Shown here piece after piece: positions 8,719 through 27,780 of a stretch of 27,859 nucleotides of DNA. The first letter of the stretch is position 1; the number at the start of each line of letters is the position of its first letter. Made by a program: the position numbers and the translations under genes. Source of the DNA: an uncultured bacterium. Its GTDB lineage: Bacteria > Verrucomicrobiota > Kiritimatiellia > RFP12 > UBA1067. The notes under the pieces are model-generated. The model worked only from the letters and a program-made list of their open reading frames with translations. It searched no databases and was not told the origin of the DNA. Location of the stretch: NCBI GenBank assembly GCA_902779075.1, contig CACZAK010000082.1, positions 1 to 27,859 of the forward strand, read 5' to 3'.

Positions 8719-10047
8719 TTATTTCTTCTCAGACATCATGAAATTGACGATTGCCCTGACCCATTTGCCGAACTGGGAGTAGAACTGCTGTCTGCATGAA
8801 TGCGTCATGCCGATGCCGTTGCCAATCGCCTTGTCTTTGACCTTGATTTCGTTGTAGGCCGCATAGACGGCGCAGGGAGGACATGTCGTATCCGAGAAGC
8901 CGACGGCTACGCGGACGGGGCACGTGATGCGGGAGGCGAAGTTTGCCCCGTCGAAATACGGTGCCCACCGTTCGGCGGCGGCACGGCGGGCTGGCGTAGA
9001 GGAGTTATTCTCGACGACCTGCGGCCAGCCGCTCTGACGCCCTTTCAAATAACCCATCGTGTCCGTGATCGCCGGCACGTAGAACGCTGCGCGCGTGAAA
9101 GTGTGGTTGAGTCCACACAGATAGAACCCGAAACCGCCGCCCTGCGAGGTACCTTGATAGCGGAAATGCGTCTTGTCCACGTCTGGCCGCGACGCCACCC
9201 AGTCCACGGCACGGTCGATGCCGAGGATGACGGGGTAGAAGAAATAGTCCTCGCGCGATTCCGTAATCCCCGCCTGACAGTAGTGCTGCACGCCAAACCG
9301 CGCGGCAAGGGCGGCGTCCATCTCCTTGTACTTCGCCTCAAGCCCGTTCTGCTTCCATCTCCAGTCCGGCGGGAACGGATAGACGCTGAAGCGCACGCAA
9401 ATCGCATCCCCTCTCCCCGACATGTCGTTCGTCCAACCGCCGAAACCCGCCGCATTCACCTCGAAGTCAACCGGAAACGGTGCCTTTGACTTGTCTTTGG
9501 GCACGCTCATGTAGCCGTGGACGCGGCGTCCGAAAGTGGCGAACGAAATGCGGTAGAAGTCGAATACCGCCGTGCTGCGCTCTGGTACGCGGGTCACCTG
9601 CGCATCAAGCGGAACATCGCGTGCAAGACGCGCCCGCGCATCGGCCCAAAACGCATCGAAATCTTCGGGGGACGGACTCCCCTTCTGGATCTTCTCCGGC
9701 TCGAATCCCGCGCTGAACACGAACGGATCCTTGCCCCACCTTCGGGTTGGTGGCAGGGAGAGCCGCAGGAAGCCCGGCTCACGCAACGTGCCCGATATCT
9801 TGAACACGGCACCGACCGACAACACGTCGAGCGGCATGTTCGTAAAGACGGTTGTGCCGAAGTTATCCAGGACGGCAAAAGGCCGTTCCGATCCCGCCAG
9901 GTTTTTCTTATCCAGTAGTCTGACCGTGAACGTGGCCGTCTCGCCGCAGCGGTAGATGCCGTCCGGCCTGTCAAGATCGACCTTGTATGTTGCGGCCGCC
10001 GCAGTTGCCACGGCCATCACTGCACAGATAATTGCTTTTATTTTCAT
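8719..10047 (-). CDS. Secreted acetylxylan esterase, CE7 family
   Basis: The 442-residue protein starts with a signal peptide (KIKAIICAVMAVATAAAA) behind a good ribosome site (GAGGAG). Residues about 20-120 are a beta-sandwich accessory domain. Residues about 125-440 are an AXE1/CE7 alpha/beta hydrolase. The nucleophile motif is GTSQGG (near residue 290), the acid lies in VGFSDTTCPP and the base in GMTHSC, so the triad is complete. CE7 enzymes remove acetyl groups from xylo-oligosaccharides and related acetylated substrates. It is in the same direction as the hydrolase fragment upstream and the FAD oxidoreductase downstream, consistent with a hemicellulose-processing operon. The accession-level substrate preference cannot be predicted. 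Confidence 0.9.
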   Translation of the reverse strand: MKIKAIICAVMAVATAAAATYKVDLDRPDGIYRCGETATFTVRLLDKKNLAGSERPFAVLDNFGTTVFTNMPLDVLSVGAVFKISGTLREPGFLRLSLPPTRRWGKDPFVFSAGFEPEKIQKGSPSPEDFDAFWADARARLARDVPLDAQVTRVPERSTAVFDFYRISFATFGRRVHGYMSVPKDKSKAPFPVDFEVNAAGFGGWTNDMSGRGDAICVRFSVYPFPPDWRWKQNGLEAKYKEMDAALAARFGVQHYCQAGITESREDYFFYPVILGIDRAVDWVASRPDVDKTHFRYQGTSQGGGFGFYLCGLNHTFTRAAFYVPAITDTMGYLKGRQSGWPQVVENNSSTPARRAAAERWAPYFDGANFASRITCPVRVAVGFSDTTCPPCAVYAAYNEIKVKDKAIGNGIGMTHSCRQQFYSQFGKWVRAIVNFMMSEKK

Positions 10048-10132: not shown

Positions 10133-10495
10133 CTACTTCTCCGACATCATGAACTTGACGATCTTCCCAGTCTTGTTCGGATCGAGGCCGCAGGGATGGT
10201 GTCCGTAGCCGCCGCGCCTTTCGACATCGATCCGCCAGCCAGCCGCCTTGAAGCGCGGAATGAACAACTCTGTGTTCAACTCCGGCGGCACGGTCTGGTC
10301 TTGTCCGCCGTAAAGAAGAAGCACCGGAATGTCGGCCTTCGCGATCGGCCCGGCGACCTTGCAGGTCTTCGCGATTTTCGCCCGCAAAGACATTCCTTCG
10401 CGCGCTACATTCTGCGGCGTATCACCAGCCGCCGTCACATTTATTGCCCACGCCAAGGCAAGGACGGCCATCATCAACTTTCTTGTCATTTTCAT
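10133..10495 (-). pseudogene. Alpha/beta hydrolase with internal deletion (signal peptide joined to C-terminal piece)
   Basis: The frame starts at an ATG behind GGAG and encodes a signal peptide (MTRKLMMAVLALAWAINVTA). Within about 20 residues it passes into the C-terminal third of a dienelactone-hydrolase-like or polysaccharide-acetylesterase-like enzyme (IPVLLLYGGQDQTVPPELN, then the GYGHHPCGLDP histidine region). The nucleophile Ser region and most of the core are missing: about 120 residues are present instead of the usual 280-300. The GGQD acid and the GHH base remain. This is best explained by an in-frame internal deletion; the product is unlikely to be active. Its ribosome site overlaps the stop region of the HipA-like gene. 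Confidence 0.75.
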
Positions 10496-10509
10496 CTTAC
10501 TCCTTTTTC

Positions 10510-11883
10510 CTATTTCAAGACATCCCACCAGCCGTTCTTGTCGGCGCCGACTCGCCGAATCTCCCCTGCCGCCTGAAGCTCCTTCATCTTACGGGCAATA
10601 CTGCTCGGTGAAACCTGCAGGATGTCCGCAAGTTCCTTATACGTGACATACGGATCAGCAGAAAGGCTACTCTTGATTTGCACTCCCAACGACTCGGAAG
10701 AAACATGATTTACACTGTCACGCTTCTGCGATAAATGCAGTAAATCGTCCGCACCTGCACCGTATTCACTAATTTCACGCACTCGCTTTTGCAGAAAATC
10801 CTCTATCTTGTGTAGCCTGTCCACGGGCAGGTTGTAATACTTGTGCCTCTTGAAACGGAAACCCTTCAGTCTCTCAAGGCGTGTCCTCATTTCCTGCGTA
10901 ATGCCGCCTGCGAAACCAAGCCATTTCTCGTACAGCGCCGGCATAATGTGGTCTATGAATTTTCTCAAATCGTCGAATTCGTCATAGCGGTGACCAGGCC
11001 TGTACATCGCAAGAGAGAACAAGCCATAGCCGTTATCGAATATCGGCGCGGCACCGACGATTTCGTTCGTGTCATTGTCAATGAGATAGCCAAAATTACC
11101 GAGATGCCTGTCTGTGTTGAATATCAATGCGTCAAAGAAGAATATGTCGGCGAAGCGACTGTCGGCAAGCGCTTCATTCTTTGACACAATGCGCCCCGCA
11201 GGTACAAAGCCAATTTTGTCGCTGGTGAAAAGCGGACATGTGGAGCAGAGGCGGCTCTTGAATTTTTCGAGTCCGTATGGAACGTGTTCAAGGCCAAGGG
11301 CCTCTGCCAGCTGTGCGGCGTAAAATTCCGAATATGGTTCAAAGCCCGTGTTGGCGGCCCCTTCCGTCCCGCCCTTGTACAGCATGACGCATCCTTCGCG
11401 CCTGCGCCAACATTTGGCCAACATCCCGTTTGTCGTGAACTCAGGGGAGGATGACGACTCCTTCCCGGCATTGAACTCGCCGCGGAAGCCACCGGTGAAC
11501 GCCATCACCGCCAACGTCTTGGAGAATTCGTTGTCATACAGGTTGAAGTCCTTCCACTTGCCCTGAAAGACATCCGGAACCACCCAATACACGTCGTTCA
11601 AGGAAAGCCCCTTGCAGATTTCGATGATGGCCTTCGTATCCTTGTGGAAGAGGCCGAGATTGCCGAGCATCATCTGGATGTAATGCCGGTGCTTCGGCAC
11701 GACGCGCCGCGTAAGCCACGTCCAGAGCGTCTCGTCACTGGCGACGCCCTTCATCTCCAGCGGCAGGAACTTCCGCTCCGCGTCGTTCACGGAGACAACG
11801 CGAACCCCCTGCGGCTCGATCCACTCGAACCGCAGCAGTTCCCTGTCTCTGTGCTTCAGTATCACTGTTTTGCCGTTGCGCAT
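10510..11883 (-). CDS. HipA-like kinase with C-terminal winged-helix domain
   Basis: The start was set at the ATG at 11883, just after a TATAAT box; the 18 codons further upstream cross the promoter. The central part matches the HipA-type Ser/Thr kinase fold: the ATP-contacting lysine strand (VMLYKGG), EFYAAQLAEALGL, the catalytic loop FNTDRHLGNFGYL and the metal-binding IFDNG. The last 60 residues (VTYKELADILQVSPSSIARK and onward) form a winged helix-turn-helix. No separate HipB-like antitoxin gene is next to it, so DNA binding and kinase may be combined in one chain. The first 120 residues are not recognised. It ends in TAG. It could regulate itself through repeats at its promoter (11925-11952). 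Whether it acts as toxin or as regulator is unknown. Confidence 0.75.
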   Translation of the reverse strand: MRNGKTVILKHRDRELLRFEWIEPQGVRVVSVNDAERKFLPLEMKGVASDETLWTWLTRRVVPKHRHYIQMMLGNLGLFHKDTKAIIEICKGLSLNDVYWVVPDVFQGKWKDFNLYDNEFSKTLAVMAFTGGFRGEFNAGKESSSSPEFTTNGMLAKCWRRREGCVMLYKGGTEGAANTGFEPYSEFYAAQLAEALGLEHVPYGLEKFKSRLCSTCPLFTSDKIGFVPAGRIVSKNEALADSRFADIFFFDALIFNTDRHLGNFGYLIDNDTNEIVGAAPIFDNGYGLFSLAMYRPGHRYDEFDDLRKFIDHIMPALYEKWLGFAGGITQEMRTRLERLKGFRFKRHKYYNLPVDRLHKIEDFLQKRVREISEYGAGADDLLHLSQKRDSVNHVSSESLGVQIKSSLSADPYVTYKELADILQVSPSSIARKMKELQAAGEIRRVGADKNGWWDVLK

Positions 11884-12446: not shown

Positions 12447-13869
12447 ATTCAGGGGAAAAGGCCGGTTTACAGCGGATTTTGCTTTGGTGCGCAGCGGAGC
12501 ATGAAATGGTGCGCACCAAAGCATCAAATGGTGCGCACCAAAACCTTCGACGGTGCGCAGCATTTAAGTGTGCCAACTGTGTCAAAATGACACACTCAAC
12601 TACTGGGATTTCCCCTGGCTTGGTCGGCGCGCGTTCGCCGCGCAGGAGCTTCGCCCCCTCGCCGGTGAGGAAGAGGTAGTGGTCCGATGGACATCCGTCC
12701 ATGCGGGCGAACTTCACGGTCTTGCCGACCGGCGGATTGTCCGACACCTTGAAGATGGCCGTCCCCTCGTTCACCTCGTCGAACATGGCCACGTAGAGGC
12801 GTTTCGCCCCCGCCGCCACGGCGGACTGGATCTGGTCCCAGTAGAACTTGCCGCCCTGGCGGGGAATGCACTCCACGGGCATGGGCTTGAGACCCTTTTC
12901 CTTGCGGCTCAGGTTGTACCAGCTGAAGCCGGGATAGACGAGCGGGACGTAGTCGACGCCCGCCGCCTTGCACCAGGCGAGGTCTGCCGACACGATGCCG
13001 CGGTAGCGGTTCATGTCGTTGTTGAGAAGCGGCGTGAAGCGCCCGACCATCCACGGCATGACCAGGTCGGCTTTCCGCACGAGCTCGTGGAGGTAGGCGT
13101 CCTTCACGCAGTCGAGCTCGAGCGCGCGCCAGTGCGTCGGCACGCCGAGCATCACGCTGCATCCGCCATACTCCGGATCGTTCTTCAGGAAGTCCATGAA
13201 CTCCGCGAGCTTGATGTCGCGGATCGAATACGGACGGTCGGGGAAACCCACCCCCCAGATGACGACGAGCGGCTTTCCGCGATGGTGGAGGTACATGTTG
13301 CTCGCGCCGTAGCTGGTCGCCTTGACCTCGTCCACGAGGAACTTCCAGTCCGCGACGAGCTTCAGGCAGTCGTCGCGCCCGGGACGCAGTCCCGACAGGT
13401 CGTACATGATCGCGACGGCGCGCGAGTGCTTCTGCGCCGCCTTGAGCGCGTGGCGGATCACCGTCGCGGACGCCTCGCGCCCCTCCTTCGAACGCCGCGT
13501 CGCGTTGCCGAAGAAGCGCTGCAGGAACACGCCGTCGAGCCCGTACTCCTCCATCCAGCGGAAGTGCGTCTCGACCGTCGATTCGTCGTCCGAGCAGAAG
13601 AACCGCGCTGTCTCGCCGTTTGCGAGCTTCAGCCCCGTGGGATACGTCTTTTCGTACTCGGAGACGTCCGGCCACATGTCGATGCGGACGGACTCCTCGT
13701 TCGGGTACATCACGCCGCCCGAACGGTTGTGGAACCACCCTTGGTAACCGGCCATGACGCGTCCGTCATACGTCGGGTGCACCGGATTACCGGCATGGCG
13801 CGTTCCCGCGGCGAACGCCGCAGCTGAAAGAATCAGCGAAACCGCCAGAATGGTATACTGTGCGCACAT
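12430..13869 (-). CDS. Secreted GH71/99-like glycoside hydrolase with a repeat-derived C-terminal tail
   Basis: The protein belongs to the GH71/99-like group of (beta/alpha)8 enzymes: AGYQGWFHNRSGG, MWPDVSEYEKTYPTG, STVETHFRWMEEYGLDGVFL, PLVVIWGVGFPD, VPLVYPGFSWYN and LYVAMFDEVNEGT are all seen. A signal peptide follows the ATG at 13869 (CAQYTILAVSLILSAAAFAA). An in-frame ATG at 13884 is equally possible, and neither has a strong ribosome site. The recognisable domain ends near LLRGERAPTKPGEIPVVE. The last 50 or so residues are translated from the 22-bp repeat array and its flanking inverted repeats, so the native stop has been lost. It may be an endo-acting mannan or alpha-glucan enzyme; substrate unknown. 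It stands alone between repeat regions. Confidence 0.8.
   Translation of the reverse strand: MCAQYTILAVSLILSAAAFAAGTRHAGNPVHPTYDGRVMAGYQGWFHNRSGGVMYPNEESVRIDMWPDVSEYEKTYPTGLKLANGETARFFCSDDESTVETHFRWMEEYGLDGVFLQRFFGNATRRSKEGREASATVIRHALKAAQKHSRAVAIMYDLSGLRPGRDDCLKLVADWKFLVDEVKATSYGASNMYLHHRGKPLVVIWGVGFPDRPYSIRDIKLAEFMDFLKNDPEYGGCSVMLGVPTHWRALELDCVKDAYLHELVRKADLVMPWMVGRFTPLLNNDMNRYRGIVSADLAWCKAAGVDYVPLVYPGFSWYNLSRKEKGLKPMPVECIPRQGGKFYWDQIQSAVAAGAKRLYVAMFDEVNEGTAIFKVSDNPPVGKTVKFARMDGCPSDHYLFLTGEGAKLLRGERAPTKPGEIPVVECVILTQLAHLNAAHRRRFWCAPFDALVRTISCSAAHQSKIRCKPAFSPELSVSK
12486..12573. repeat. Four 22-bp units with GGTGCGCA core (iteron-like array)
   Basis: GGTGCGCA begins at 12486, 12508, 12530 and 12552, exactly 22 bp apart. 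The middle two units carry the full palindrome GGTGCGCACC; the outer two read GGTGCGCAGC. The 11 bp between cores are similar in the first two units (GAGCATGAAAT and AAGCATCAAAT) and diverge later. The array lies inside the 3' end of the GH71/99-like reading frame. Confidence 0.85.
12578..12599. repeat. Inverted repeat TGTGTCA/TGACACA next to the 22-bp array
   Basis: TGTGTCA (12578-12584) and TGACACA (12588-12594) can pair with a 3-nt loop. The right arm is part of TGACACACTCAA, identical to 12436-12447 on the opposite side of the array. Confidence 0.7.
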
Positions 13870-13886
13870 GACCTCAAACGACATCT
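13850..13886. repeat. 37-bp duplicate of the NYN-gene promoter and start
   Basis: This segment is identical over 37 bp to 22468-22504. It contains the extended -10 TGGTATACT, the palindrome TGTGCGCACA and the first codons ATGACCTCAAACGACATC. Read on the minus strand it supplies the N-terminal codons of the GH71/99-like gene. Confidence 0.9.
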
Positions 13887-13990
13887 GCCAACTTCATTTT
13901 TGCTTGGTAGTTTTCTTCCTGAATCCGTTCAAGGGCATAGTGCCCCAAAACGCGTATATTTTACAATATTCCGCGCTTCGCTGTCAATGA
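13868..13990 (+). pseudogene. Short frame starting with the NYN-gene start codons
   Basis: Downstream of the duplicated promoter an ATG at 13868 opens a 40-codon frame. Its first six residues (MTSNDI) are identical to the NYN protein at 22486; the rest has no resemblance. It is probably the debris of a partial duplication and not a functional gene. A leaderless small peptide cannot be excluded. Confidence 0.3.
13958..13987 (-). promoter_or_regulatory. Promoter of the GH71/99-like gene
   Basis: On the minus strand a perfect TTGACA (13987-13982) is followed after 18 bp by TAAAAT (13963-13958). The predicted start lies about 65-80 nt before the candidate start codons. That leader contains AGGAAG followed by a seven-codon frame (MKLADVV, from 13895). 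Confidence 0.55.
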
Positions 13991-14029: not shown

Positions 14030-17000
14030 TTACTCGACCGTGATCTTCCAGTCGCCGATCTTTTTCACGTATGCAACGCCGTAGCCGACGCCGTCCAGAA
14101 CCACGCCGGACACCTTGACGGTCTTCTGCCTGAAGCTCCTCCCGCTGTCCACGTAAACCTTGAACGAGCCGCTGAAGGCCCCGTCTTTGCCGTACCGCAG
14201 CGACAGCTTCGCCGGGGCGCCGCCGGGGAACGACTGCTCCACGCTGATGCCCGGAAACGCCGCCGCCACGGCAGCCTGGTCGATTCGCAGCGTCGCCCCC
14301 GCCGCAGGCCCCGCTCCAACCGGCGCGGCCACCGCCACGGAGCCGTCATTCAGGCTCTCGCAGGACACCGTGCCGTCCTCGCCGAACCACAGCAGGCAGG
14401 CGACGGACGCTCCCTTCTTCGCCCAGCTCACCGCCACTGCGCATTCCTTCTCGCCGACGAGCAGCAGAGAGCCCGTGCCCATGCGCCTGTGCAGCCCGCC
14501 CACGAGCAGATGCGTGTTCGCCGAAACGCGCGTACCGTTCGCAAGCGTCCCCTTCACGGTCACGCGCCCCTTCTTCTTCACCGTGATGGAAAGCGTGTTG
14601 TAGGGCGCGTCCGGCGCGCCGGCCGTCTGCCACGCCGCAACGTAATTTCCCTTCCAGCGGCTCAGTGCCTGCGCGGCCCGCGACTTGGAGTCGGCGTCCC
14701 GCGCCGAGAACATGTTGCGCGAACCGTCGACTAGATACGAGCCGAACGCGCCGGAGAGCGAGTGGAGCCCGAGCGCGATGTCGAGCGCCCGGCCGTCCGC
14801 CATTGCGCGGAACGTGCCGTCCACTGTCGTGCCCTTCACGGTGATCGCCTTCTGCCCAGTGAGGCGGATCGTCACCGTGAGACGCGAGATGCCGGTCTTC
14901 TTGCTTGGCTTGCCCGCCTTAACGGCGATCACGCCGACCACCGCGTCGTTCACGTTGGCGTCCAACAGGTAGCCGTTGTACGTAGTCATGCGGTCAAGCT
15001 GGAACGGCGCATCCGTAGGCCACAGCACGCGCCTCCCCGCAGGTTCCGGCTCCGGTTCGGGTTCCGGCTCTGGCTCGGGTTCCGGCTGTGGCTGCGGTTC
15101 GGGCTGTGGCTGCGGCTGCGGTTCGGGCTCGGGCTGCGGCTGCGGTTCGGGTTCGGGCTCGGGCTGCGGCTGCGGTTCGGGTTCCGGTTCTGGTTCGGGC
15201 TGTTCGGCAATTCTGAAGGTGCACTTCACGATGCCAAAGTAGTTGCCCTTGAACGTCACAGTCACCGTCGCCGTACCTGGCTCCACGTTGTCCGAGTAGG
15301 CGACGTCGTAGTCGACTCCCGCGACGAGCTGACGCCCGCCGCTCTTAATCGTCACCGGCGGCTCCTTAGCCGTGCCGTCGCCGACGTAGCCCCCCTCCGG
15401 CAAATCCAGGTTCACTTCCGTATCTTCATCCGTCAGTTCCTTCGAAACTACCGTGAGCGTGCCCTCCTCCATTGTAATCTCGTAGTTCCCCGCGAGCGTG
15501 CCGTCGTTGAGCGCGTAGGTGAAGGTGTTTCCGCTCGAGCCGACGTGCGTCTGCGAGCCGGTCACGTCAAAGGTGGCGCCTTCGCTAGGCGCGAAGCCAT
15601 CGGCGCCGACGAGAACGTCGGCGCACGTGACGGGCGTGCCGTCGTACACCTTGCTCGCGCTGTCGCTCGTGAGCGTGACTGCGCGCTGCGTGATCTTCAC
15701 CGTCACCGAGTTGGTGACGGGCACGTAGTTCGGCGCGCTCGCCTCCACCCACACCGTCACGTTGGTCACATCGGTGAAGGTTGGCGGCGTATCGCCAAAT
15801 GGTAGGGCGAGCCCTCCGGGCGAGCCGCCCTCCCCAACCGCATACCGCAGCTCCAGGCCCGCGATCACATTCGTCTCAATCCCGACCCCATGCCCTTCGC
15901 CGTCGTACACGCCCTCGTACCCCGTCAGCGCGATGTCGTCCGCCACGAACGTCGCACGCGCGATGGTGAACGGCACCACGAACGTGAGGCCGTCGTAGTC
16001 ATCCGTACCCGCTACGGTGAACGTGGCCGTGTAGTCGCCCGCGTCGCCCGGCTCCGCCGAGTACGTCACCGTCGCCGTGCCAAACGTCGCGCCGCCCATG
16101 TCCGGCACGCCTGCCGCCTCGCCGTACGTCCAGCCCGCGATCGACGGATCCGTCGTCCATGCGTTCGTCGCCTTCGTCACCGTCAAGGTGCCGTTCGAGG
16201 TCGTGATCACGTAGTTCGCCGCGTCCGTGCCGTCGTTGAGCGCGTAGGTGAAGGTGTTTCCGCTCGAGCCGACGTGCGTCTGCGAGCCGGTCACGTCAAA
16301 GGTGGCGCCTTCGCCCGGCGCGAAGCCATCGGCGCCGACGAGAACGTCGGTGCACGTGACGGGCGTGCCGTCGTACACCTTGCTCGCGCTGCCGCTCGTG
16401 AGCGTGACCGGCCGTGCGGTGATCTTCACCTTCGCCGCATGGACGAAATCATCGTAGTTCGGGTTCGCCACCTTGTACCACACGGCGTACTCGCCCGCGT
16501 TCGTGAACGACGGCGGCTCGGCCGTCCACGTTGCGGCTGGCGCGCCGCCGTCGTCGAGCGCGTAGGTGAAGGCGGAGTCCCCGCCGCCGACCATCACCGC
16601 AGAGAACGCCGCCTCAAGCGCGTTCGTATCGACGGCATGCACCTCGCCGTCGTACGTCGCCGCCGCGTCGAATTTCGACTCGCCGCCCTCAGGCACCTCG
16701 CCGTTGCCCGGCTCCTCGGTGCCGCCGCCGACGCGGGCCGGCGTGATCGTGAGCGTGGCGCTGGCGGTCGCCGCGTTCGCGTAGTTCGGGTTCGTGGCGC
16801 GCACGAGGATCGTGCAGGTGTCCGAGACGCCTTCCGCGACCAGGCTCGAAAGGTCGGCCGTCCAGTTCGAGCCGTCCTTCGAGTATTCGATGGTGGTCTC
16901 GCCGGTCAGGGCGGTACCGGCGGCAACGCCGGTCAGCGCGTGCGGGGAGCCGTCATAGACGAATGACTCGCCGTCAAGCGACACCGTGAACGCCAGACTC

Positions 17001-17191
17001 GGATCCTGCTCGATGGTCAGCGCACCGTTGGCCACGCCCACGTCGTAGTTTGCCGTCACGTCCTCCTCGCCGAACAGGATGACGACGTCGCCCGCATCCG
17101 TGATGACGCCCTCGTACGGGCCGCCGACATCCGTGCCCTTGGCCGAGAAGACCACGTTGTGCGTGTGGCCGGACACCAGACCTTCCGCCAC
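14030..17191 (-). CDS. C-terminal segment: MBG stalk, PE-rich linker and terminal beta domain
   Basis: This 1,053-codon open segment has no start of its own (it opens with GTG inside an MBG domain). It contains about six MBG or similar Ig-fold modules, two of them nearly identical ([33 protein letters not shown]). A linker of about 55 residues made almost only of Pro, Glu and Gln follows, then a C-terminal region of about 330 residues with repeated beta motifs ([71 protein letters not shown]). That last domain recurs, as far as I recall, at the ends of long secreted PVC proteins; its function is unknown and surface anchoring is an inference. Confidence 0.75.
15040..15205. repeat. Low-complexity Pro-Glu/Gln coding repeat
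   Basis: The plus strand reads as alternating GGTTCC, GGCTCG and GGCTGC hexamers. On the coding strand this gives a long (PE/PQ)n linker. Such tracts expand and contract by slippage. Confidence 0.85.
15498..15679. repeat. 182-bp direct repeat, copy 1 (MBG domain)
   Basis: This stretch and 16227-16408 are nearly identical, differing at only a few positions. They encode the same MBG module and lie 729 bp apart. They indicate recent in-frame domain duplication or gene conversion. Confidence 0.85.
16227..16408. repeat. 182-bp direct repeat, copy 2 (MBG domain)
   Basis: Second copy of the MBG-coding repeat at 15498-15679. Both begin with GTGCCGTCGTTGAGCGCG and end at GAGCGTGAC on the plus strand. 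Confidence 0.85.
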
Positions 17192-18881
17192 GACGCCCCT
17201 GCCGCTTCGTGATCCCGAAGGTGGCGCTCTGGCTTCCCAACCGCGGGGGAAGCATCGTCACGGTCAGATTCGCCGTCCCCGCGTTCGTGTTGCCCGTGTA
17301 GGAGACCGCATAGTCCCTGCCACGCTCGAGTTCGATATCCACGCCGTCAAACTCCACCGTGACTTCGGGTTCTATTGGCTCGCCGGTGTACGGATACCCC
17401 TGGCCGCTGAGGCCCTTGATGAGGATCGGCGCGTAAACCGCCGTAACCGTCACGGACTTTGCGGGCATGACGAAGGTGGTCTCGGCCGCGTCTGCCTTGT
17501 CGAAATTAACGCCGTCGTTGCTCGTCCACTGCACGAACGCCTCGCCGGCCGAGGGTTCGTTCGCCGTGATCGTGACCGTCGAGCCGACCTTCGCCGACGA
17601 GTTCGTGGTGCGGCCGTGCTCGACGGTTACGGCGTAGGTCGCAATCGAGATCGGATCGCTCGCGGCCGCGCACACCGTGCCGGCTCGCTCCGCGCCGGCT
17701 GCCGCCTCGGCGCTGCGCTCGCTTTCGAAATTGTTTGACAGGGTTCTGACGAGGCGGAAGCCGTTGAAGTCGTAGCCGTCGTACGACGGGTCGAAGTCGC
17801 TCCGGTAGGACGAGGTGCAGCAGCCCGCAGAGTCGACCCAGCCGCCGCCGCGCCCCACCCGGTACGACCCCGAGGAAGAATACCGTTCGAGACACCACTC
17901 CCACACGTTGCCGTGCATGTCGTAAAGTCCCCAGGCGTTTGGCAGGTGGGAACCGACCGCCGCCGTGCCAGCGTTTGTGGCGCAGGAATCGCTGGAACCG
18001 AAGCCGCCGTTGTCCCAGTAGCGACCGAGGGCCTGGAGGTCGCCCTCGGTGTCGCCGCCGTTGTTGTACGTGCTGGTCGTGCCGGCGCGGCAGGCGTACT
18101 CCCACTGCGCCTCGGTCGGGAGGTCAAGGGTGTCGAGGTCTGTTTTTTGGCGCAAGACTCCTAAGAAGGACTCGGGATCAACACCCTGGACGTCCGGCCA
18201 GTCGTAGGTATCCGCATCCCCTCGGATCATGTTCCAGGAGACCTTCTCCACCGGACGCGTGGCGTAGTACGTTTCGTTGGTGAACCAGCTCGGTCTGCCG
18301 CCCGTCACCAGCTCCCACTGCTTCTGCGTCGTCTCGAAGACGGCGCAGTAGAAGGCGTTGGTGAGCGTGACGGAGTGCGGCGGGTTGTCGGGGTATGCCG
18401 CGTTGCCCATCGTGAAGGTTCCCGGCGCGATGAGACGCATCGCGAGGTTCGTGGTCTTGTAGAGGTCGTTGGTGAAGCCGCCGGGGACGTTGGGGACATT
18501 GGAGACATAGGTGACGGGGTAGTTTTCGGCATCCTTGCCGCCGGAGAGGTCGATGATGCAGTAGTCGGGCAGGGTGAGGTACGCCACCGTGAAGGTGACG
18601 TTGGTTGACGCGAACTCGATCCCCTGCGCGCGGAGGTCCCACGTTACACGGTGGTTGGGCTCCGCCACGCCCGTGTCGAAGGTGAGCGCCGACGCGGCGG
18701 ACACGTAGTTCGAGCCGGTCATGTTGTCCGTCGCCACGATGGAGAGGAACGGCTTGTTCCAGTCGGGCAGGCCCGACCAGTTCCCGCCCGTGACGAACGT
18801 GAAGTCCACCGTCCCGTTCCACGGATCGCTCGCCGTCGCTGTGACGTTGGAGACGACGGGCTGCGGGAGTATCTTGAACAT
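16974..18881 (-). CDS. Middle segment: second Ig-like/SUMF1/InlB-repeat unit
   Basis: The coding sense of this segment runs from the frameshift near 18909 to the one near 17205; after that its frame is out of register. In order it carries an Ig-like domain ([20 protein letters not shown]), a SUMF1/FGE-fold domain ([61 protein letters not shown]), an InlB-type repeat and an MBG-like module. The SUMF1 fold is a C-type-lectin variant. The last 34 codons of the head (17763-17864) are a candidate DGR variable region. The internal ATG at 18881 is not a real start. Confidence 0.75.
17763..17864 (-). other. Candidate DGR variable region, SUMF1 copy 2
   Basis: In this 34-codon window, bounded by the invariant GFRLVRTL end, the codons that differ from copy 1 (19424-19522) all keep the third base. 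Examples are TAC for GGC, GTC for TTC, GAC for AAC, TCT for GAT, GGC for GTC, TGC for TAC, and GAC, TTC, GAC for AGC, TAC, TAC. This is what mutagenesis of AAC/AAT template codons gives. The frame RGGxWxxxAxxC...R...P...GFRLV is typical of known DGR targets of the FGE/C-type-lectin type. Confidence 0.65.
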
Positions 18882-19576
18882 GGCGCTCTGGCTTCCCAGC
18901 CGCGGGGGAGCATCGTCACGGTCAGGGTCGCCGTCCCCGCGTTCGTGTTGCTCGTGTAGGAGACCTCGTAGTCCGTGCCGCGCCGGACCGCGATGTCCAC
19001 GTCTTTAAGCTCCACCTTGATCTCGGGCTCGACCGGCTTGCCGGTCCACGGGTAGCCCGCGTCGTTGAGGTCCTTGATGAGGATCTCCGAACGAACCGCC
19101 GTCACCGTCACGTCCTTCGCAGGCATGGTGAAGGTGGTCTCGGCCGCGGACGCGTTGGCAAAGTCCACGCCGTCGTTGCTCGTCCACTGGACGAACGCAT
19201 AGCCAAAGTCGAGTTCGCCCGCCGTGATCGTGACCGTCGAGCCGACCTTCGCCGACGAGTTCGTGGTGCTGCCGTCCACGACGGTGACGGTGTAGGCCGG
19301 CAGGATCTCGACCTGCGGGCTCACGCCCGCGCACACCGTGCCGGCTCGCTCCGCGCCGGCTGCCGCCTCGGCGCTGCGCTCGCTTTCAAAGTCGTTTGAC
19401 AGGGTTCTGACGAGGCGGAAGCCGATGCTGCGGTCGCCGTACGACGGGTAGTAGCTGCTCCGGTAGGACGAGGTGCAGTAGACCGCATCGTTGAACCAGC
19501 AGCCGCCGCGCAGCACCCGGCCCGACCCCGAGGAAGAATACCGTTCGAGGCACCACTCAAACACGTTGCCGTGCAT
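18719..19576 (-). CDS. Segment after the amber codon: end of SUMF1 copy 1, InlB-type repeat, MBG-like module
   Basis: In frame with the segment upstream of the TAG at 19589. It starts inside the SUMF1 motif (MHGNVFEWCLERY), contains the first candidate variable region and GFRLVRTL, then an InlB-type repeat ([20 protein letters not shown]) and an MBG-like module ending TNAGTATLTVTMLP. After about 18909 the frame is lost by a 1-bp deletion, and the final 60 or so residues are out of register. It would only be made by readthrough or internal initiation. Confidence 0.6.
   Translation of the reverse strand: MHGNVFEWCLERYSSSGSGRVLRGGCWFNDAVYCTSSYRSSYYPSYGDRSIGFRLVRTLSNDFESERSAEAAAGAERAGTVCAGVSPQVEILPAYTVTVVDGSTTNSSAKVGSTVTITAGELDFGYAFVQWTSNDGVDFANASAAETTFTMPAKDVTVTAVRSEILIKDLNDAGYPWTGKPVEPEIKVELKDVDIAVRRGTDYEVSYTSNTNAGTATLTVTMLPRGWEARAPCSRYSRSPSSPTSQRRRAIRGTGRWTSRSSRAGTGRACPTGTSRSSPSWRRTT
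19424..19522 (-). other. Candidate DGR variable region, SUMF1 copy 1
   Basis: Aligned with 17763-17864, about 17 of 33-34 codons differ and one codon is inserted or deleted, yet there is no third-position change. The flanking codons (CTC GAA CGG TAT TCT TCC upstream, GGC TTC CGC CTC GTC AGA ACC downstream) are identical. The segment lies just downstream of the amber codon. Confidence 0.65.
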
Positions 19577-19588
19577 GTCGTAAAGTCC

Positions 19589-20881
19589 CTAGGCGTTCGG
19601 CTTGTAGGAGCCGGCCGCCGCCGTGCCAGCGTTTGTGGCGCAGAAATCGCTGTAATCGGAGCCGCCGTTGTTCCAGTAGCGCCCGAGGACCTTGAGGTCG
19701 CCCTCGGTGTCGCCGCCGTTGTTGTACGTGCTGGTCGTGCCGGCGCGGCAGGCGTATTCCCACTGCGCCTCGGTCGGGAGGTCAAGGGCGTCGAGGTCTG
19801 TTTTTTGGCGCAAGACTCCTAAGAAGGACTCGGGATCAACACCCTGGACATTCGGCCAGTTGTAGGTATCCGCATTCCCTCGGATCATGTTCCAGGAGAC
19901 CTGCTCCACCGGGCGCGTGGCGTAGTACGTTTCGTTGGTGAAGTAGCTCGGGCGGTCGCCATTCACAAGCTCCCACTGCCGCTGCGTCGTCTCGAACACG
20001 GCGCAGTAGAACGCGTTCGTGATTTCCGTCTCCGTTGTGCCGCCCTTCTTGAAGGTTCCCGGCCCGATGAGGCGCATCACGAGGTTCGTGGTCTTGTAGG
20101 CGTCGGTGTTGAAGGTGACGCCGGGGACGTTGGAGACTTTGGGGACGTTGGAGACGTAGGTGACGGGGTAGTGCGCGGCGTCTTTGCCGCCGGAGAGGTC
20201 GATCACGCACCAGTCGGGCATCCTGAGGTACGCCACCGTGAAGGTGACGTTGGTGGAGGCGAAGTCGATCCCCTGGGCCTTGAAGTCCCACGTCACCTCA
20301 TGTGTGCCGCTCGAGCCCGCGAGCGCGTCGCCGAGCTGGTAGGGCGCTCTCGCCGAGAGCGCCGCCGCGGACGACACGTAGTTCGAGCCGGTCACGTTGT
20401 CCGTCGCCACGATGGAGAGGTACGGCCGGTTCCAGTCGGGGCACGCGGCCGCCGGGGAGTTCACGACGTTGAAGGAGATGCTGACCCTTCCGTCCCACGG
20501 CTCGCTCGGCGTGGCGACGACGTCCGTGATCTCCGGCGGTTCCGCCTGGCCCGTCACGACGAACGTGGCGGTCTCCACCTTCCCCGCGACGCCGTTCGTG
20601 CAGGTGACGTGCGTGAGCTCGTACGTGCCGTTGTACGGGACGCTCCACGCCCGCTCGCCATCGCCCGCCAGGTTCTCGGCGATCGCCACGCCGTCCTGCG
20701 CGACCGTCACCGTCGCGTCCGCGCCGCCGTCCCACAGGGACGAGAAGGCGAGCGTCTCGTCGCCCCCGCTTGCGCGGGGGCCGGTGCGCAAGTCGAGCAC
20801 CATCTTCGCGGAATCCCCCGCATGCGCGACCCCGGCGACCACCATCAGGGCCGTCGCGACCATTGCCTTTGCCACTCTCAT
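19589..20881 (-). CDS. N-terminal segment of the giant surface protein: signal peptide, Ig-like domains, SUMF1 copy 1
   Basis: The start has a strong ribosome site (AGGAGG, 7 bp spacing) and a signal peptide (VAKAMVATALMVVAGVAHAG). Residues about 25-110 and 115-250 are Ig-like domains (SLWDGGADATVTVAQDG; PPEITDVVATPSEPWDGRVS). Residues about 265-430 are the first SUMF1/FGE-fold domain ([42 protein letters not shown]). It stops at TAG within [10 protein letters not shown], where the second copy has TGG. It follows the FISUMP gene by 57 bp in the same direction and is probably cotranscribed. If translated, the product is a truncated secreted protein lacking the ligand-binding end of the head. 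Confidence 0.8.
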   Translation of the reverse strand: MRVAKAMVATALMVVAGVAHAGDSAKMVLDLRTGPRASGGDETLAFSSLWDGGADATVTVAQDGVAIAENLAGDGERAWSVPYNGTYELTHVTCTNGVAGKVETATFVVTGQAEPPEITDVVATPSEPWDGRVSISFNVVNSPAAACPDWNRPYLSIVATDNVTGSNYVSSAAALSARAPYQLGDALAGSSGTHEVTWDFKAQGIDFASTNVTFTVAYLRMPDWCVIDLSGGKDAAHYPVTYVSNVPKVSNVPGVTFNTDAYKTTNLVMRLIGPGTFKKGGTTETEITNAFYCAVFETTQRQWELVNGDRPSYFTNETYYATRPVEQVSWNMIRGNADTYNWPNVQGVDPESFLGVLRQKTDLDALDLPTEAQWEYACRAGTTSTYNNGGDTEGDLKVLGRYWNNGGSDYSDFCATNAGTAAAGSYKPNA

Positions 20882-20938: not shown

Positions 20939-21937
20939 CTATTCGGTGAACCCTTGGACTGGACGAACAGACTGCCCGCGGTAGCGGGAGTTGCCGTCCG
21001 TGTAGCGGGCGCCCGAATAGATGCCGAGGCTCCACGCGTAGCTGTTGTCCGAGTACGGAACGGACGACCAGTAGTAGCCGTACGAATCGAAATAGCCGAG
21101 CGAAGTCCCGTAGCCGCGGCCGGCGCAGGGGAGGAAGATACTGGCAGATTCGTAGGCGCCCTGGCCTCGGACGACATATCCGTTCACGCCGTTCTGCGTC
21201 GTCCAGGTCCAGTTGCACTTGTTGACGAGGTCGTCCAGATCTTGTTTCGTCGGCATCCGCCAAGCGCCGCCCCAGTGCGCCTGCGCCGCGTCATGCGCCG
21301 GCGTGAGGACGCTGTCCTCCGTGATCCATTTCCCGTTCTCGTTCCCACTTTGCAGGGTGGCAATGTCCTTGCCGAAGGTGTAGATGGCCGAGTTTGCGTT
21401 CGAGAAGTTGAAGTCCGGCGAGGAACCATCTGAGGCAACCCACTTGCCATTTTCGTGCTTGTAGCCCACCGTGTCGCCCCACCAGAAGTAGAGGCCGTAG
21501 CCCTCGGGCTTCTCCGCGCCGACGTTCGTCATGGCCCAGTACGGCCCGCCCTCCCAGAGCTGGGCCCTGGCGTGTCCGCTGACGACCGTCACGCGCACCA
21601 CGACGTTGCTGTAGAGTTCCGGACCGAGGTCCGCCCTGGCGTCCCAGATCAGGCGGTAGTTGCCGTTGGAGCACACCCCCTGGACAGGGGACTTCTTCAC
21701 GTCTTTCGCGACCCAGAAGTTCGTGGCGTTGTGGACGCTCGAATCGGGCATCACCGCCGCCACGGCGAAATCGAGTCCGTAGTCCGTCCCGTTGATCCCG
21801 GACACCGTGCAGGTGATGTCCACGAGCCCGTTCCACGGCCAGCGCTGCCGGGCCTTCACATCGTTCACGTCGGCCGCCCAAAGCGGCGTTGCGGCGGCCA
21901 TCGCCGCCAGCAGAATCAGGTTTGTGATTCGTTTCAT
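20939..21937 (-). CDS. Secreted FISUMP-type protein, possible DGR target
   Basis: The start at 21937 has GGAGG upstream and a signal peptide (KRITNLILLAAMAAATPLWA); the longer frame lacks both. Residues about 22-140 are an Ig-like domain related to those in the neighbouring giant protein (RWPWNGLVDITCTVSG). The rest resembles the Fibrobacter succinogenes major paralogous domain: YWAMTNVGAEKPEGYGLYFWWGD, WGGAWRMPTKQDLDDLVNKC, IFLPCAGRGYG, YYWSS, GQSVRPVQ. This domain is found on cell-surface proteins; its role is unknown. The last 47 or so codons before GQSVRPVQ are rich in NNC/NNT codons encoding Tyr, Ser, Gly, Asp, Asn and Arg, as in DGR variable regions. It lies upstream of the giant protein in an apparent operon. 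Confidence 0.8.
   Translation of the reverse strand: MKRITNLILLAAMAAATPLWAADVNDVKARQRWPWNGLVDITCTVSGINGTDYGLDFAVAAVMPDSSVHNATNFWVAKDVKKSPVQGVCSNGNYRLIWDARADLGPELYSNVVVRVTVVSGHARAQLWEGGPYWAMTNVGAEKPEGYGLYFWWGDTVGYKHENGKWVASDGSSPDFNFSNANSAIYTFGKDIATLQSGNENGKWITEDSVLTPAHDAAQAHWGGAWRMPTKQDLDDLVNKCNWTWTTQNGVNGYVVRGQGAYESASIFLPCAGRGYGTSLGYFDSYGYYWSSVPYSDNSYAWSLGIYSGARYTDGNSRYRGQSVRPVQGFTE
20978..21118 (-). other. Possible DGR variable region in the FISUMP protein
   Basis: Between the conserved LPCAG and GQSVRPVQ motifs most codons end in C or T with freely varying first two bases (CGC GGC TAC, GGC TAT TTC GAT, GAC AAC AGC TAC, GGC ATC TAT, GAC GGC AAC, CGC TAC CGC). There is only one copy in the window, so no variant comparison is possible. 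Codon bias of a GC-rich genome could also favour NNC. Confidence 0.4.
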
Positions 21938-22065: not shown

Positions 22066-22424
22066 TTGCTTTCGCTGCTGGGAGATTAGGAGTCTAGGAG
22101 TTTCGGAGGTGATTATAAACCTAAATTCCTCATCTCGATATAACACTCCATGTTATATCTCACGCAGAGGCGCGGAGAGGCAGAGTTCGCAGAGGTTATC
22201 TCATTGTTGAGTATGCATTTTTTCACTAATTGTGTGGAATAACTTTCCGAGATTCTTCTCGTCATGTTTTCTTTTCCGCCGGATTTCAGAACTTTCTCTG
22301 CGCTCTCCGCCTCTCTGCGTCTCTGCGTGAGACATTCAACTGACGAATCTAGCACCAACTTCCGAATTTAGGATAAAAATCCTCCAAGTCTCCTAAACTC
22401 CAAAACTCCCAATAGCGAAAGCAA
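22066..22424. mobile_element. 359-bp terminal-inverted-repeat element (MITE-like), copy 1
   Basis: The ends TTGCTTTCGCTGCTGGGAG and CTCCCAATAGCGAAAGCAA are inverted repeats, followed inward by GGAG-rich and CTCC-rich tracts that also pair. The body carries an internal inverted pair TCTCACGCAGAG (22158-22169) and CTCTGCGTGAGA (22321-22332). No transposase frame is present; short frames inside are incidental. It occupies most of the divergent region between the FISUMP and NYN genes. Relative to the copy at 25987-26282 it has about 12 extra bases near 22237 (TTGTGTGGAATA). Confidence 0.75.
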
Positions 22425-22467: not shown

Positions 22468-22504
22468 ATGGTATACTGTGCGCACATGACCTCAAACGAC
22501 ATCT
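22468..22504 (+). promoter_or_regulatory. Extended -10 promoter with palindrome and leaderless start of the NYN gene (37-bp repeat copy)
   Basis: TGG precedes TATACT (22472-22477), and the ATG follows 8 bp later (22486), so the mRNA should begin at or next to the start codon. No -35 match or ribosome site is present. The perfect palindrome TGTGCGCACA (22477-22486) overlies the start and could be an operator. The whole 37 bp is repeated at 13850-13886. Confidence 0.6.
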
Positions 22505-23058
22505 TCCGCGACACGCGGGTCGCGCACGTGCGCGAGCTCAAGGCCGAGGTGGCCCGTCTCAAAGAGGAACTCGCGCGCGAGCACGGCGCGCGGGAGAGCC
22601 TCGAGAGCCACTTCGCCCTCGCGCTCGCCGCCGCGCGCGACGCGGAGCGGATGGCGCCGGACGCCGAACTGCTCGTCGTCGACGGCTGGAACGCCGTGAT
22701 CGGCACGCACCGTCTGGACGCCGACGCCCGCCACGCCGGACGCGACCGCCTCGTTGCGAACCTGCGCGAGCGCGTGGCCGCCGACCCGCGCCTGCACGTG
22801 TGGGCGATCTTCGACGGCGCCGAGATGCGCGCCGCCGCCGAGTCGGACGGACGCCTCCGCGTAGGCTACACCGGCGGCACCGGCGCGCACCGCGCGGACC
22901 GGATGGTGTGCGACTACCTGCGCATGAGGAAGATCCTCGGGCTTAACCACGCCGTGACCGTGGTCACGGACGACAAGGACTTCGCGAAGGAGGCGGCCGC
23001 ACTCGGCGCCTCCGTGAAAGGAACGGATACGCTCAATGCCAAAACCCAAGCCAACTGA
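22486..23058 (+). CDS. NYN-domain (YacP-like) RNA-binding/nuclease protein
   Basis: Using the leaderless ATG, the protein has 190 residues. Residues about 10-55 form a charged coiled coil (VRELKAEVARLKEELAREHG). The rest is a NYN/PIN-like domain: LLVVDGWNAVIG with the first acidic residue, VWAIFDGAEMR, GAHRADRMVCDYLR and VTVVTDDKDFAKEAAALGA, matching the four-acid pattern of the YacP/Rae1 family. Family members act on RNA, for example as ribosome-associated endonucleases. An in-frame ATG 18 bp upstream overlaps the -10 box and is unlikely to be used. The last 23 bp overlap the methyltransferase gene, so the two are likely translated together and may both act on ribosomes or rRNA. Confidence 0.8.
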   Translation: MTSNDIFRDTRVAHVRELKAEVARLKEELAREHGARESLESHFALALAAARDAERMAPDAELLVVDGWNAVIGTHRLDADARHAGRDRLVANLRERVAADPRLHVWAIFDGAEMRAAAESDGRLRVGYTGGTGAHRADRMVCDYLRMRKILGLNHAVTVVTDDKDFAKEAAALGASVKGTDTLNAKTQAN

Positions 23059-24141: not shown

Positions 24142-24349
24142 TTGCTTTCGCTGTTGGGAGTTTTGGAGTTTGGGAGGCTAGGAGGATTTTTTACCTAAAA
24201 TCCTCGGTTGAAAGTCTCACGCAGCGTCGCAGAGAGGCGGAGAGCGCCTCTGCGTGAGATATAACATGGAGAGGTAAACCGAAATGAGGAATTTAGCTTT
24301 AATTTTCTCTGAAACTCCTAGCCTCCTAATCTCCCAGCAGCGAAAGCAA
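24142..24349. mobile_element. 208-bp terminal-inverted-repeat element (MITE-like), copy 2
   Basis: The ends TTGCTTTCGCTGTTGGGAG and CTCCCAGCAGCGAAAGCAA form long inverted repeats. Inside is a second inverted pair, TCTCACGCAG and CTGCGTGAGA. It is shorter than the copy at 22066-22424 and has an inverted internal orientation in part (GAGATATAACATGGAG against CTCCATGTTATATCTC). It lies between the convergent methyltransferase and ATPase genes and could fold as a bidirectional terminator. Confidence 0.75.
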
Positions 24350-25893: not shown

Positions 25894-25985
25894 ATGGCAA
25901 CTATTTTGAGAAATGGCAAATAGTTGCCATTTTCAACGCCCCCGAAAAATGGCAACTATTCTTGAAAACCCAAAATAGTTGCCAT
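25894..25985. repeat. Two palindromes of ATGGCAACTATT upstream of the ATPase promoter
   Basis: ATGGCAACTATTT (25894-25906) pairs with AAATAGTTGCCAT (25918-25930), and ATGGCAACTATT (25949-25960) pairs with AATAGTTGCCAT (25974-25985). The two palindromes are exactly 55 bp apart. They sit just upstream of the -35 box and end where the truncated element begins. Confidence 0.8.
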
Positions 25986-25986
25986 C

Positions 25987-26282
25987 AACCTAAATTCCTC
26001 ATTTCGATTTTCCACTCCATGTTATATCTCACGCAGAGTCGCGGAGAGGCAGAGTTCGCAGAGGTTATCTCATTGTTGAGTATGCATTTTTTCACTAAAC
26101 TTTCCGAGATTCTTCTTGTCATGGTTTTCTTTTCCGCCGGTTTTCTGAACTTTCTCTGCGCTCTCCGCCTCTCTGCGTCTCTGCGTGAGACATTCAACTG
26201 TCGAATCTAGCACCAACTTCCGAATTTAGGATAAAAATCCTCCAAGCCTCCTAAACTCCAAAACTCCCAGTAGCGAAAGCAA
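25987..26282. mobile_element. Left-truncated terminal-inverted-repeat element, copy 3
   Basis: From AACCTAAATTCC onward it is about 95 percent identical, by eye, to the element at 22066-22424, including the internal TCTCACGCAGAG and TGCGTGAGA arms and the right end CTCCCAGTAGCGAAAGCAA. The left terminal repeat is missing and is replaced by the ATGGCAACTATT palindromes. Frames within it are the SLRE/RRRGAE-type translations of the repeat and are not genes. It ends 12 bp before the stop of the right-edge hydrolase. Confidence 0.75.
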
Positions 26283-26294
26283 GACATTCAAAGG

Positions 26295-27780
26295 CTACAG
26301 CGTGATTTCGTACCACACGGTCTTGTACTCTGGGCCGATCTTCACCACTGCTTGGCCGTTGGCATCCGCCGTCACGGGAACAGGGGCTTTGCGCTCACCA
26401 CGCTCGTCGAGCGCCCAACACTTCGTTTTGGCGGCCTTTGACGGCAATGTAATCGTGGCGGGGATGCCCTCGTTCACGGTCTTGCCATTCCCCCAGTCCG
26501 CGCCGCGACAGTGAATATTATCGCCCTCATGCGTGAACTTCGCGCCGCCGTTGTGGCAAAGTCCTGTCGCCGCAAGGAGGATGCGCGCGGGACGGCCGTC
26601 CGCGCCGAAGCCCGTTGCGTCGTGTGAGGTGAGCGACACCGTCGCCCAGCCGAGCTTCGTCTCGCCGACCTGGAGCTTCACGCCGCCAAGGTCGAACGTC
26701 CGTCCCTTCGTGAACCCGGAGAACACCTTGGTGTTCGGCGTGTTGACGGTCCAGAACGCCGCGCCCTCCACTTCGCCGTTGAGGACGATTTCGCCCGTGT
26801 CGCTCTTGAAGACCTTTTGGTCCTTACCCGGAATGGGACAGGCAATCTGCTTCGACTTCGCCGTGAGGTCCACCGCCGTCTTACGCTCAAGCGCAAGTTC
26901 GTTCGGAACCTTGCCGTCCGTTGCGGGCTCGATTCCCTGCGCGATGATCCCCTTCCGCACGAAGCGGTCTAAGTATTCGTTGTAGGGGAGGTTTGCGACG
27001 TACGACTTCGCGCTCTCCTTCACGTCGCCGCGCAGGTACATCGCGGCGCAGGCGGGGAAGTGCGCGAGCACGTCCGTGCGCGCCGCCATGGAGAAGAAGT
27101 ACTCGTTGCGGTCCGGTTCGGCGTTCTGACGGTTGTTGTAGGAATACTCGAACACGCCGTCCCAGCCGTGCAGCGCCCCATACGCACGGAGCATGGGCTG
27201 GCCTTCCGCGCCGTAGAAGTTGGGGTAGGGATGGTTGTATTCGCTGACCGTGTAGGGCTTGCCGAGGACGCGCTGGCCCGCCAATCTGCTGATGCGGTCC
27301 ACATTGTCGTTCACCATCGCCTTGTTGCCTATGCGCCAATTCTTGCCATTGTTTACTTTCGGGTGGCACCAGTAGGAGTGGATATCGACATAGTCCATCT
27401 CCGCCATGAGGTGCGGCGTGGAGAAGTTGAGTTGCGTGGCGGCGACGGGTGCCTTGAGGCCAAGTTCGTTTTTGAGGTAGCCGAGCATCCCGGTCCAGAA
27501 GTCGTGCTCCACGTCGGTGAGGAATTGGTAGAAGTCGCGCTTCATCTCAATAGGAGCGCGCGACCGCTTGCTGTGTACGAACGGATAGTCGCCGTTCTCG
27601 ATGCGGAACTTGTCGAGGTACGGCAGCGGCTTCTCGGCGAGCTTCCACGCCGCGCGCGCCTTCTCCGTGGTGCCGTACTTCTTGACGAGCCAGTCGCTCC
27701 AGAGCTTCTTGAGGCACTTGCCGTACACGTCATCGCGGCCGTCAAGTCCGCCCTTCAAGTACACGCTTATCCCGACTTTT
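26295..27780 (-). pseudogene. Glycoside hydrolase (clan GH-A-like) lacking its N-terminal part
   Basis: Recognisable sequence starts at about GGLDGRDDVYGKCLKKLWSD and continues through DFYQFLTDVEHDFWTGMLGYLK, a beta/alpha barrel half (YVDIHSYWCHPKVNN, KPYTVSEYNHPYPNF with the likely catalytic Glu) and a beta-rich C-terminal domain ending KTVWYEITL. Related barrel hydrolases of this type usually have 200-300 more residues before this point, including the first half of the barrel and the signal peptide. Upstream the frame runs into a stem-loop-rich sequence with an arbitrary ATG at 27824 (MFSGVRRNFG). The gene was therefore cut near 27760-27780 by an insertion or deletion. Export and activity are unlikely as it stands. 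Confidence 0.65.

Follow-up and report, generated by a model that had tools for sequence, protein, structure and literature searches.

Probable diversity-generating retroelement targets, tandem FGE-sulfatase heads and a neighbouring Lcl_C protein, on a Kiritimatiellia contig

Analysis of a 27,859-nucleotide contig from an uncultured member of the Kiritimatiellia (CACZAK010000082.1; the whole stretch is referred to here as the window) identifies three short variable regions (VRs), two in tandem FGE-sulfatase heads (VR-A and VR-B) and a third in a neighbouring Lcl_C gene, which, judging by their sequences, were very probably written by diversity-generating retroelements (DGRs). The tandem units lie on the minus strand at a spacing of 1658–1661 bp, and each is composed of an Ig-like part, an FGE-sulfatase head, and an InlB-type repeat, the Ig-like assignment of both being our own reading of the sequence. 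The Lcl_C gene product has an apparent signal peptide, also by our own reading. Both kinds of gene probably encode binding heads carried by secreted proteins, probably of the cell surface; secretion, display, and ligand binding are what we infer for them. Coordinates of the features are collected in Table 1.

Table 1. Features of the FGE array and the adjacent Lcl_C gene in the window.
Feature	Position	Strand	Remarks
Downstream ORF	14030..17191	-	Repeat-rich C-terminal part of presumed ancestral long protein; different frame
FGE unit A	16974..18881	-	Ig-like region, FGE head, InlB repeat; PF03781 E=2e-31, PF18998 E=5.8e-11
Possible translated hairpin, unit A	17692..17713	-	Part of linker
VR-type IMH-like 3′ boundary, unit A	17736..17750	-	AGA form
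VR-A, variable region of head A	17763..17866	-	Codon alignment; one codon longer than VR-B
Remainder of unit B, same frame	18719..19588	-	End of FGE head, InlB-type repeat; frame lost near 18909
Possible translated hairpin, unit B	19353..19374	-	GRNA loop (GGCA); 22 nt past boundary
VR-type IMH-like 3′ boundary, unit B (GTCAGAACCCTGTCA)	19397..19411	-	AGA form
VR-B, variable region of head B	19424..19524	-	Codon alignment
FGE unit B, N-terminal part, 430 aa	19589..20881	-	Ends at TAG 19589-19591 (TGG in copy A); PF03781 E=2.1e-10
Lcl_C (DUF1566) domain gene, 370 aa	20939..22051	-	PF07603 E=3.2e-6, 27.9 bits, below 34.9-bit cut-off
Lcl_C VR, residues 312-358	20978..21118	-	Template match in G012; third DGR target

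Elsewhere in the window, a family of direct and inverted repeats is present in several copies within about 4 kb, mostly intergenic (22066–22424, 24142–24349, and 25984–26321), and a 40-nt direct repeat, 98% identical between its copies, lies at the starts of two opposite-strand ORFs (13850–13889 and 22468–22507). The short ORF at 10133–10528 looks like the end of a hydrolase; it adjoins an esterase-like gene (8719–10047) and is, by our own reading, possibly a remnant.

Codon alignment of VR-A and VR-B shows that 15 of the 33 aligned codons differ, all of them nonsynonymously, with 11 changes at codon position 1, 10 at position 2, and none at position 3; there is also a one-codon indel, with the extra codon present only in A. 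The first-pass annotation of this DNA had placed both regions correctly and had rightly described changes confined to codon positions 1 and 2 between identical flanks, although its count of about 17 differing codons was slightly too high. The flanks of the two VRs are identical for about 25–30 nt on each side and diverge beyond this, and outside the VRs the A/B alignment contains 85 third-position changes alongside 150 at the first two positions (Fisher p=1.7e-4 relative to the VRs). Across the span 17735–17893, third positions are changed in none of 52 codons, as against 85 of 467 outside it (p=9e-5). One might suppose that the two heads are ordinary FGE paralogues shaped by positive selection together with a third-position preference for C or G, as there are many FGE relatives in the genus and many of the codons end in one of these bases. 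However, nonsynonymous codons carry an accompanying third-position change in 0 of 15 cases within the VRs and in 42 of 119 outside (p=0.003), and the variable codons coincide with the Asn codons of a real template described below, such that this explanation is largely refuted and we consider it most improbable. Because the VR third positions are constant and the flanks have diverged, selection on amino acids alone is insufficient, while a common rewriting of the two regions explains the pattern.

The real template is found in a genome of the same family (G033), where contig C31 (locus L148) carries a DGR reverse transcriptase (RT) with an adjoining template repeat. It encodes NRVKRGGSWNNNADNCNSSNRNNNNPSNENNNDGFRLV, close to the form of template that had been predicted from the window heads. 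Relative to this template VR-A has mismatches at 25 of 40 adenines and at 7 of 102 other bases (p ~1e-11), and VR-B at 24 of 40 adenines and 7 of 102 other bases (p ~7e-11), corresponding to 62% (A) and 60% (B) of the A sites and 7% of sites elsewhere; the seven mismatches at non-adenine bases indicate that this is the template of a relative and not the cognate one. The variable codons of the window heads match Asn codons of the G033 template, including an AAT at the position of the TCT/GAT codon. We also constructed by rule a hypothetical 144-nt template from both window heads, placing A wherever codon position 1 or 2 varies; its best match among the matches listed for 114 genomes is the G033 template, at 90% identity, and this match is not blind because the G033 template was already known when the rule-built one was written. 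FGE-like sites were found at 15 further loci, 14 of which can be aligned to the G033 template; an adenine excess is seen in 13, and the one exception (p=0.48) resembles a template and lies next to another RT.

Tandem copies, numerous paralogues, and flanking identity resembling conversion tracts could all be taken to suggest that paralogues exchanged cassettes or underwent gene conversion, with no reverse transcription involved. Conversion by itself, however, does not concentrate differences at template adenines, and it sits poorly with the many different residues found per template-Asn column among the Lcl_C homologues (see below); we regard it as very unlikely. In the DGR mechanism that we favor, the RT would copy a template RNA and misread the adenines of its Asn codons (AAC or AAT), and the cDNA would replace the target segment up to a 3′ boundary (IMH), with a downstream hairpin perhaps marking the recipient site. 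The FGE unit would have been duplicated in tandem and both copies rewritten from the same or very similar templates, so that the third positions of the VRs agree while the rest of the copies have diverged; as VR-A and VR-B are one codon apart in length, a single common template is not proved. With the template and RT both outside the window, they would either act from elsewhere, in trans, or have been lost. Within the G033 genome itself, the local VR differs from the C31 template at 17 of 40 A sites and 3 of 104 other sites, and a remote VR on contig C77 differs from the same template at 17 of 39 A sites and 6 of 102 others, which is no more than suggestive of trans action there.

The third variable region belongs to a different fold and is located in the Lcl_C gene, at the C-terminus of the protein as in a typical DGR target, in contrast to the VRs of the FGE heads. 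This protein has homologues with up to 87% identity, including one at 83% in G001, the nearest of the genomes compared (28% of sampled words in common with the window; 89% complete). Alignment of the Lcl_C VR with a DGR template in G012 places 27 of the 38 mismatches on a template A. We aligned the window protein with 13 close homologues, picked by length and identity from 120 listed, and in this alignment the 20 columns corresponding to template Asn codons have a mean of 2.30 bits, compared with 0.37 for the 45 other template columns and 0.35 for the 260 columns outside the template, with many different residues at each template-Asn column. Between the window and G001 the Lcl_C VR has 34 changes at codon positions 1 and 2, and one at position 3.

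The window's arrangement recurs on contig C183 of G001, which has the Lcl_C gene together with an FGE gene and several of the flanking genes. Pairwise comparisons were made among six Lcl_C genes and among six FGE heads (15 pairs each), and the VRs are depleted of third-position changes (p<0.05) in all 15 Lcl_C pairs and in all 15 FGE pairs, noting that pairs share sequences and are not independent; depletion of synonymous changes alone reaches p<0.05 in 12 of 15 and 10 of 15 pairs, respectively. Depletion is least pronounced for the G001 FGE head, whose VR has 8 and 9 third-position changes relative to A and B. A comparison of synonymous and third-position changes had been named beforehand as a possible refutation of the DGR reading, which is not refuted by these results.

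In the window itself, a motif search and an ungapped scan with 10-mer seeds found neither an RT nor a template. An RVT_1 match is present in 42 of 114 relatives of G001, and we searched for DGR-type enzymes with a profile of 12 RTs from relatives at a threshold of 300 bits, which is our own choice. At least 20 of the 114 family genomes have a DGR-type RT scoring 300 bits or more, the next match among the matches listed being at 177 bits. In the nearest genus this is true of at least three of 16 genomes (G002, G006, and G012), each with template/VR pairs as well. No DGR-type RT was found in G001 (89% complete), where the only RT found is group II intron-like by its motif. A repeat scan for mismatches concentrated on one base, covering 24 sequences (the window plus 23 loci, with two loci taken as one and the same), gave template/VR pairs in 13 of the 23 loci, although one pair is short (L153; 70 bp with 6 mismatches) and two of the 13 loci (L069 and L130) belong to other lineages. 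Among the RTs at the loci from relatives are some bearing IGxxxSQ, which the account in PMC3521204 gives as the motif of DGR enzymes. The DGR origin proposed in the first-pass annotation is supported on three counts: genomes of the nearest genus and of the family carry template/VR pairs alongside DGR-type RTs, the VRs show adenine specificity relative to the G033 template, and the orthologue comparisons agree with it. An exact template pattern and the G033 RT yielded no relative in viral_contigs that would point to a viral origin.

We note that the template repeat overlaps the RT ORF in two of these elements, near its 3′ end in G033 (L148:4524–5825) and towards its 5′ side in G012 (L139:4551–6191); overlap of this kind is already recorded in PMC3521204. 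The VR of a Treponema DGR pair (L130:5110–5247) has an in-frame TGA where the template has a TAA.

As sequenced, heads A and B are not in one ORF, since a TAG at 19589–19591 precedes VR-B and a single-base difference occurs near 18909; the idea that two variable regions are carried by a single polypeptide is therefore not upheld in an intact form here, as there is both a stop before VR-B and a frame shift between the units. The end of the unit A ORF is also out of frame with the downstream part, and in G001 a similar downstream part is likewise in a separate ORF. The TAG and frame shifts suggest either decay or sequence error. The truncated 430-residue product of unit B corresponds to P0212, which is listed with two member sequences on two contigs, so the TAG may be real. 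Several FGE heads within one protein are found in relatives (P0132, P0134, and P0142), and P0170 is a single 1107-residue protein in which an Lcl_C head is joined to an FGE head, that is, two DGR target folds in one polypeptide. Nor is the presence of several VRs in one protein as unusual as had been supposed, since parts of PMC3521204, PMC6642488, and PMC10907252 already describe it; the figure given in PMC6642488 is 31 of 271 multi-VR DGRs with VRs within one ORF.

These interruptions bear on whether the system is a fossil, a decaying array whose VRs a DGR once wrote with machinery that has since disappeared. Apart from the stop and frame shifts, this is consistent with finding no DGR-type RT in G001 and with two Lcl_C VR loci that look to lie beside damaged DGRs: at L278 (G006:C50) an upstream gene has the RT fused to it and a clear template was not found, and at L277 (G001:C225) that same upstream gene runs, by our own reading, into a transposase-like stretch, with no RT found; a fossil state is therefore possible for the window too. 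However, the third positions of the A and B VRs are still identical while their flanks have diverged, so rewriting seems to have continued after the duplication; both DGR-type RTs and template/VR pairs persist in G002, G006, and G012; and assembly errors in repeats could account for the frame shifts. On balance we give the fossil interpretation appreciable weight, somewhat short of even odds; a DGR elsewhere in the genome may still act on these targets.

The 3′ boundaries of the VRs also resemble those of DGR targets. In 9 of 9 template/VR pairs examined (L139, L151, and L153 were left out, and the window sites are the FGE copies), the template has AGC at the 3′ boundary, while the VR has AG followed by a base other than C; both window FGE copies have a VR form, AGA. 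Among 27 distinct boundary sites in the loci examined, one belongs to a template, 16 are followed by a stop codon within four codons, and 10, including both window FGE copies, continue in frame for more than 200 codons. The FGE VRs are followed by 779 codons in G001, 807 in G006, and 813 in G012, and by 226 and 254 codons in the window before the frame breaks.

For nine of the 10 internal VRs there is an imperfect inverted repeat with a GRNA loop 20–23 nt after a TGTC, with 8 of 8 base pairs in seven and 7 pairs in two, and translated within an Ala-rich linker; the internal VR of G152 does not have this hairpin form, and G005:C13 is outside the reach of the pattern. The stem is bulged, and a scan for unbroken stems of 6 or more misses it. 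For covariation we used nine distinct versions chosen for having 7 or 8 of 8 pairs, six from internal and three from C-terminal VRs; this set excludes G152, seven C-terminal VRs that do not have the form, and L304 and L310 (6 of 8 pairs), 12 C-terminal VRs having been examined, with L301, L306, L308, and L315 outside the reach of the pattern. In these rows, which were chosen for matching, 95.8% of cells pair, eight cells are changed on both sides (shuffled mean 2.6), and the covariation score is 0.351 (0.095 when shuffled), none of these values being reached in 500 shuffles; sliding the versions by 1 to 3 columns gives lower scores. Two other measures do not stand out, however: 182 of 500 shuffles reach the three pairs that change on both sides (shuffled mean 2.1), and 160 of 500 reach the four further pair types (shuffled mean 2.9). 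DNA folding energy of the hairpin is unexceptional (z=0.36 for both window copies and −1.16 for one non-coding relative). The BPP-1 hairpin as described in PMC3240598 combines a GC-rich stem with a GRNA loop. It is possible that the FGE hairpin is a signal of the recipient site.

The internal position of the FGE VRs, with a VR-type boundary and a possible GRNA-loop hairpin translated as an Ala-rich linker, is the less ordinary feature of this system. Novelty lies there, as several VRs per protein and targets acted on in trans are already in print. According to the relevant passages of a large survey, PMC8144416, VRs are typically C-terminal because cis elements are needed downstream, which in this arrangement can lie in intergenic DNA free of coding constraint, and the group of internal FGE VRs is a departure from this rule as stated there. 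We tentatively propose, holding it to be plausible but short of probable, that the DGRs of this family have their recipient signals (IMH and GRNA-loop hairpin) embedded in the coding sequence, where they are read as an Ala-rich linker. The head would thereby no longer be tied to the C-terminus, so that a long secreted protein could carry a stack of diversified heads, of one fold or two, with an RT and template located far away rewriting them in trans. If this is true, a family with translated signals in long frames would be a counter-example to the C-terminal explanation in those passages of PMC8144416, and the in-frame signals would offer a natural way of building diversified domains internally and in tandem. 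The system also brings FGE and Lcl_C targets together in what are probably Kiritimatiellae-like bacteria from ruminant guts; in the literature searched, no paper joins diversity-generating retroelements with 'Kiritimatiell', or 'Kiritimatiell' with SUMF1.

The FGE-sulfatase matches and the best match, TvpA, place the FGE VRs within a C-type-lectin-like fold. TvpA (2y3c) is the best solved relative of the FGE head both by sequence and by fold, the latter from a low-confidence model (pLDDT 60); the model of the Lcl_C protein is too poor for use (pLDDT 41.5). TvpA of Treponema denticola is, like the window heads, an FGE-type variable protein of a DGR, but it has a single head, whereas the window has tandem heads followed by InlB and repeat domains. 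The G033 C31 DGR resembles the window in its FGE target, in a template close to the implied one, and in having the same 3′ boundary in the VR, and differs in that its RT is adjacent and its VR is at the C-terminus. Tandem FGE paralogues are also reported in Marichromatium purpuratum 984 (PMC3521204), there with three VRs in one ORF, whose status the passage concerned leaves undecided between artefact, pseudogene, and expressed gene; that ORF belongs to a DGR identified by its RT, whereas in the window no RT was found and the frame is broken. The Thiohalocapsa PB-PSB1 DGRs, as presented in part of PMC10907252, share with the window several VRs per target, targets at incomplete loci, and inferred trans action, although those targets are putative conflict-system proteins and the window targets are predicted to be secreted proteins of InlB type. 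DUF1566 (Lcl_C) targets, with the same domain that carries the VR in the neighbouring gene, are described in portions of PMC4159848 and PMC6642488, but unlike those the Lcl_C target here is beside an FGE target, and in P0170 is fused to one. Finally, the cyanobacterial remote variable proteins of PMC7517822, as portrayed in the part of that paper concerned with them, are likewise targets located away from the RT locus, in another lineage and with other domain architectures.
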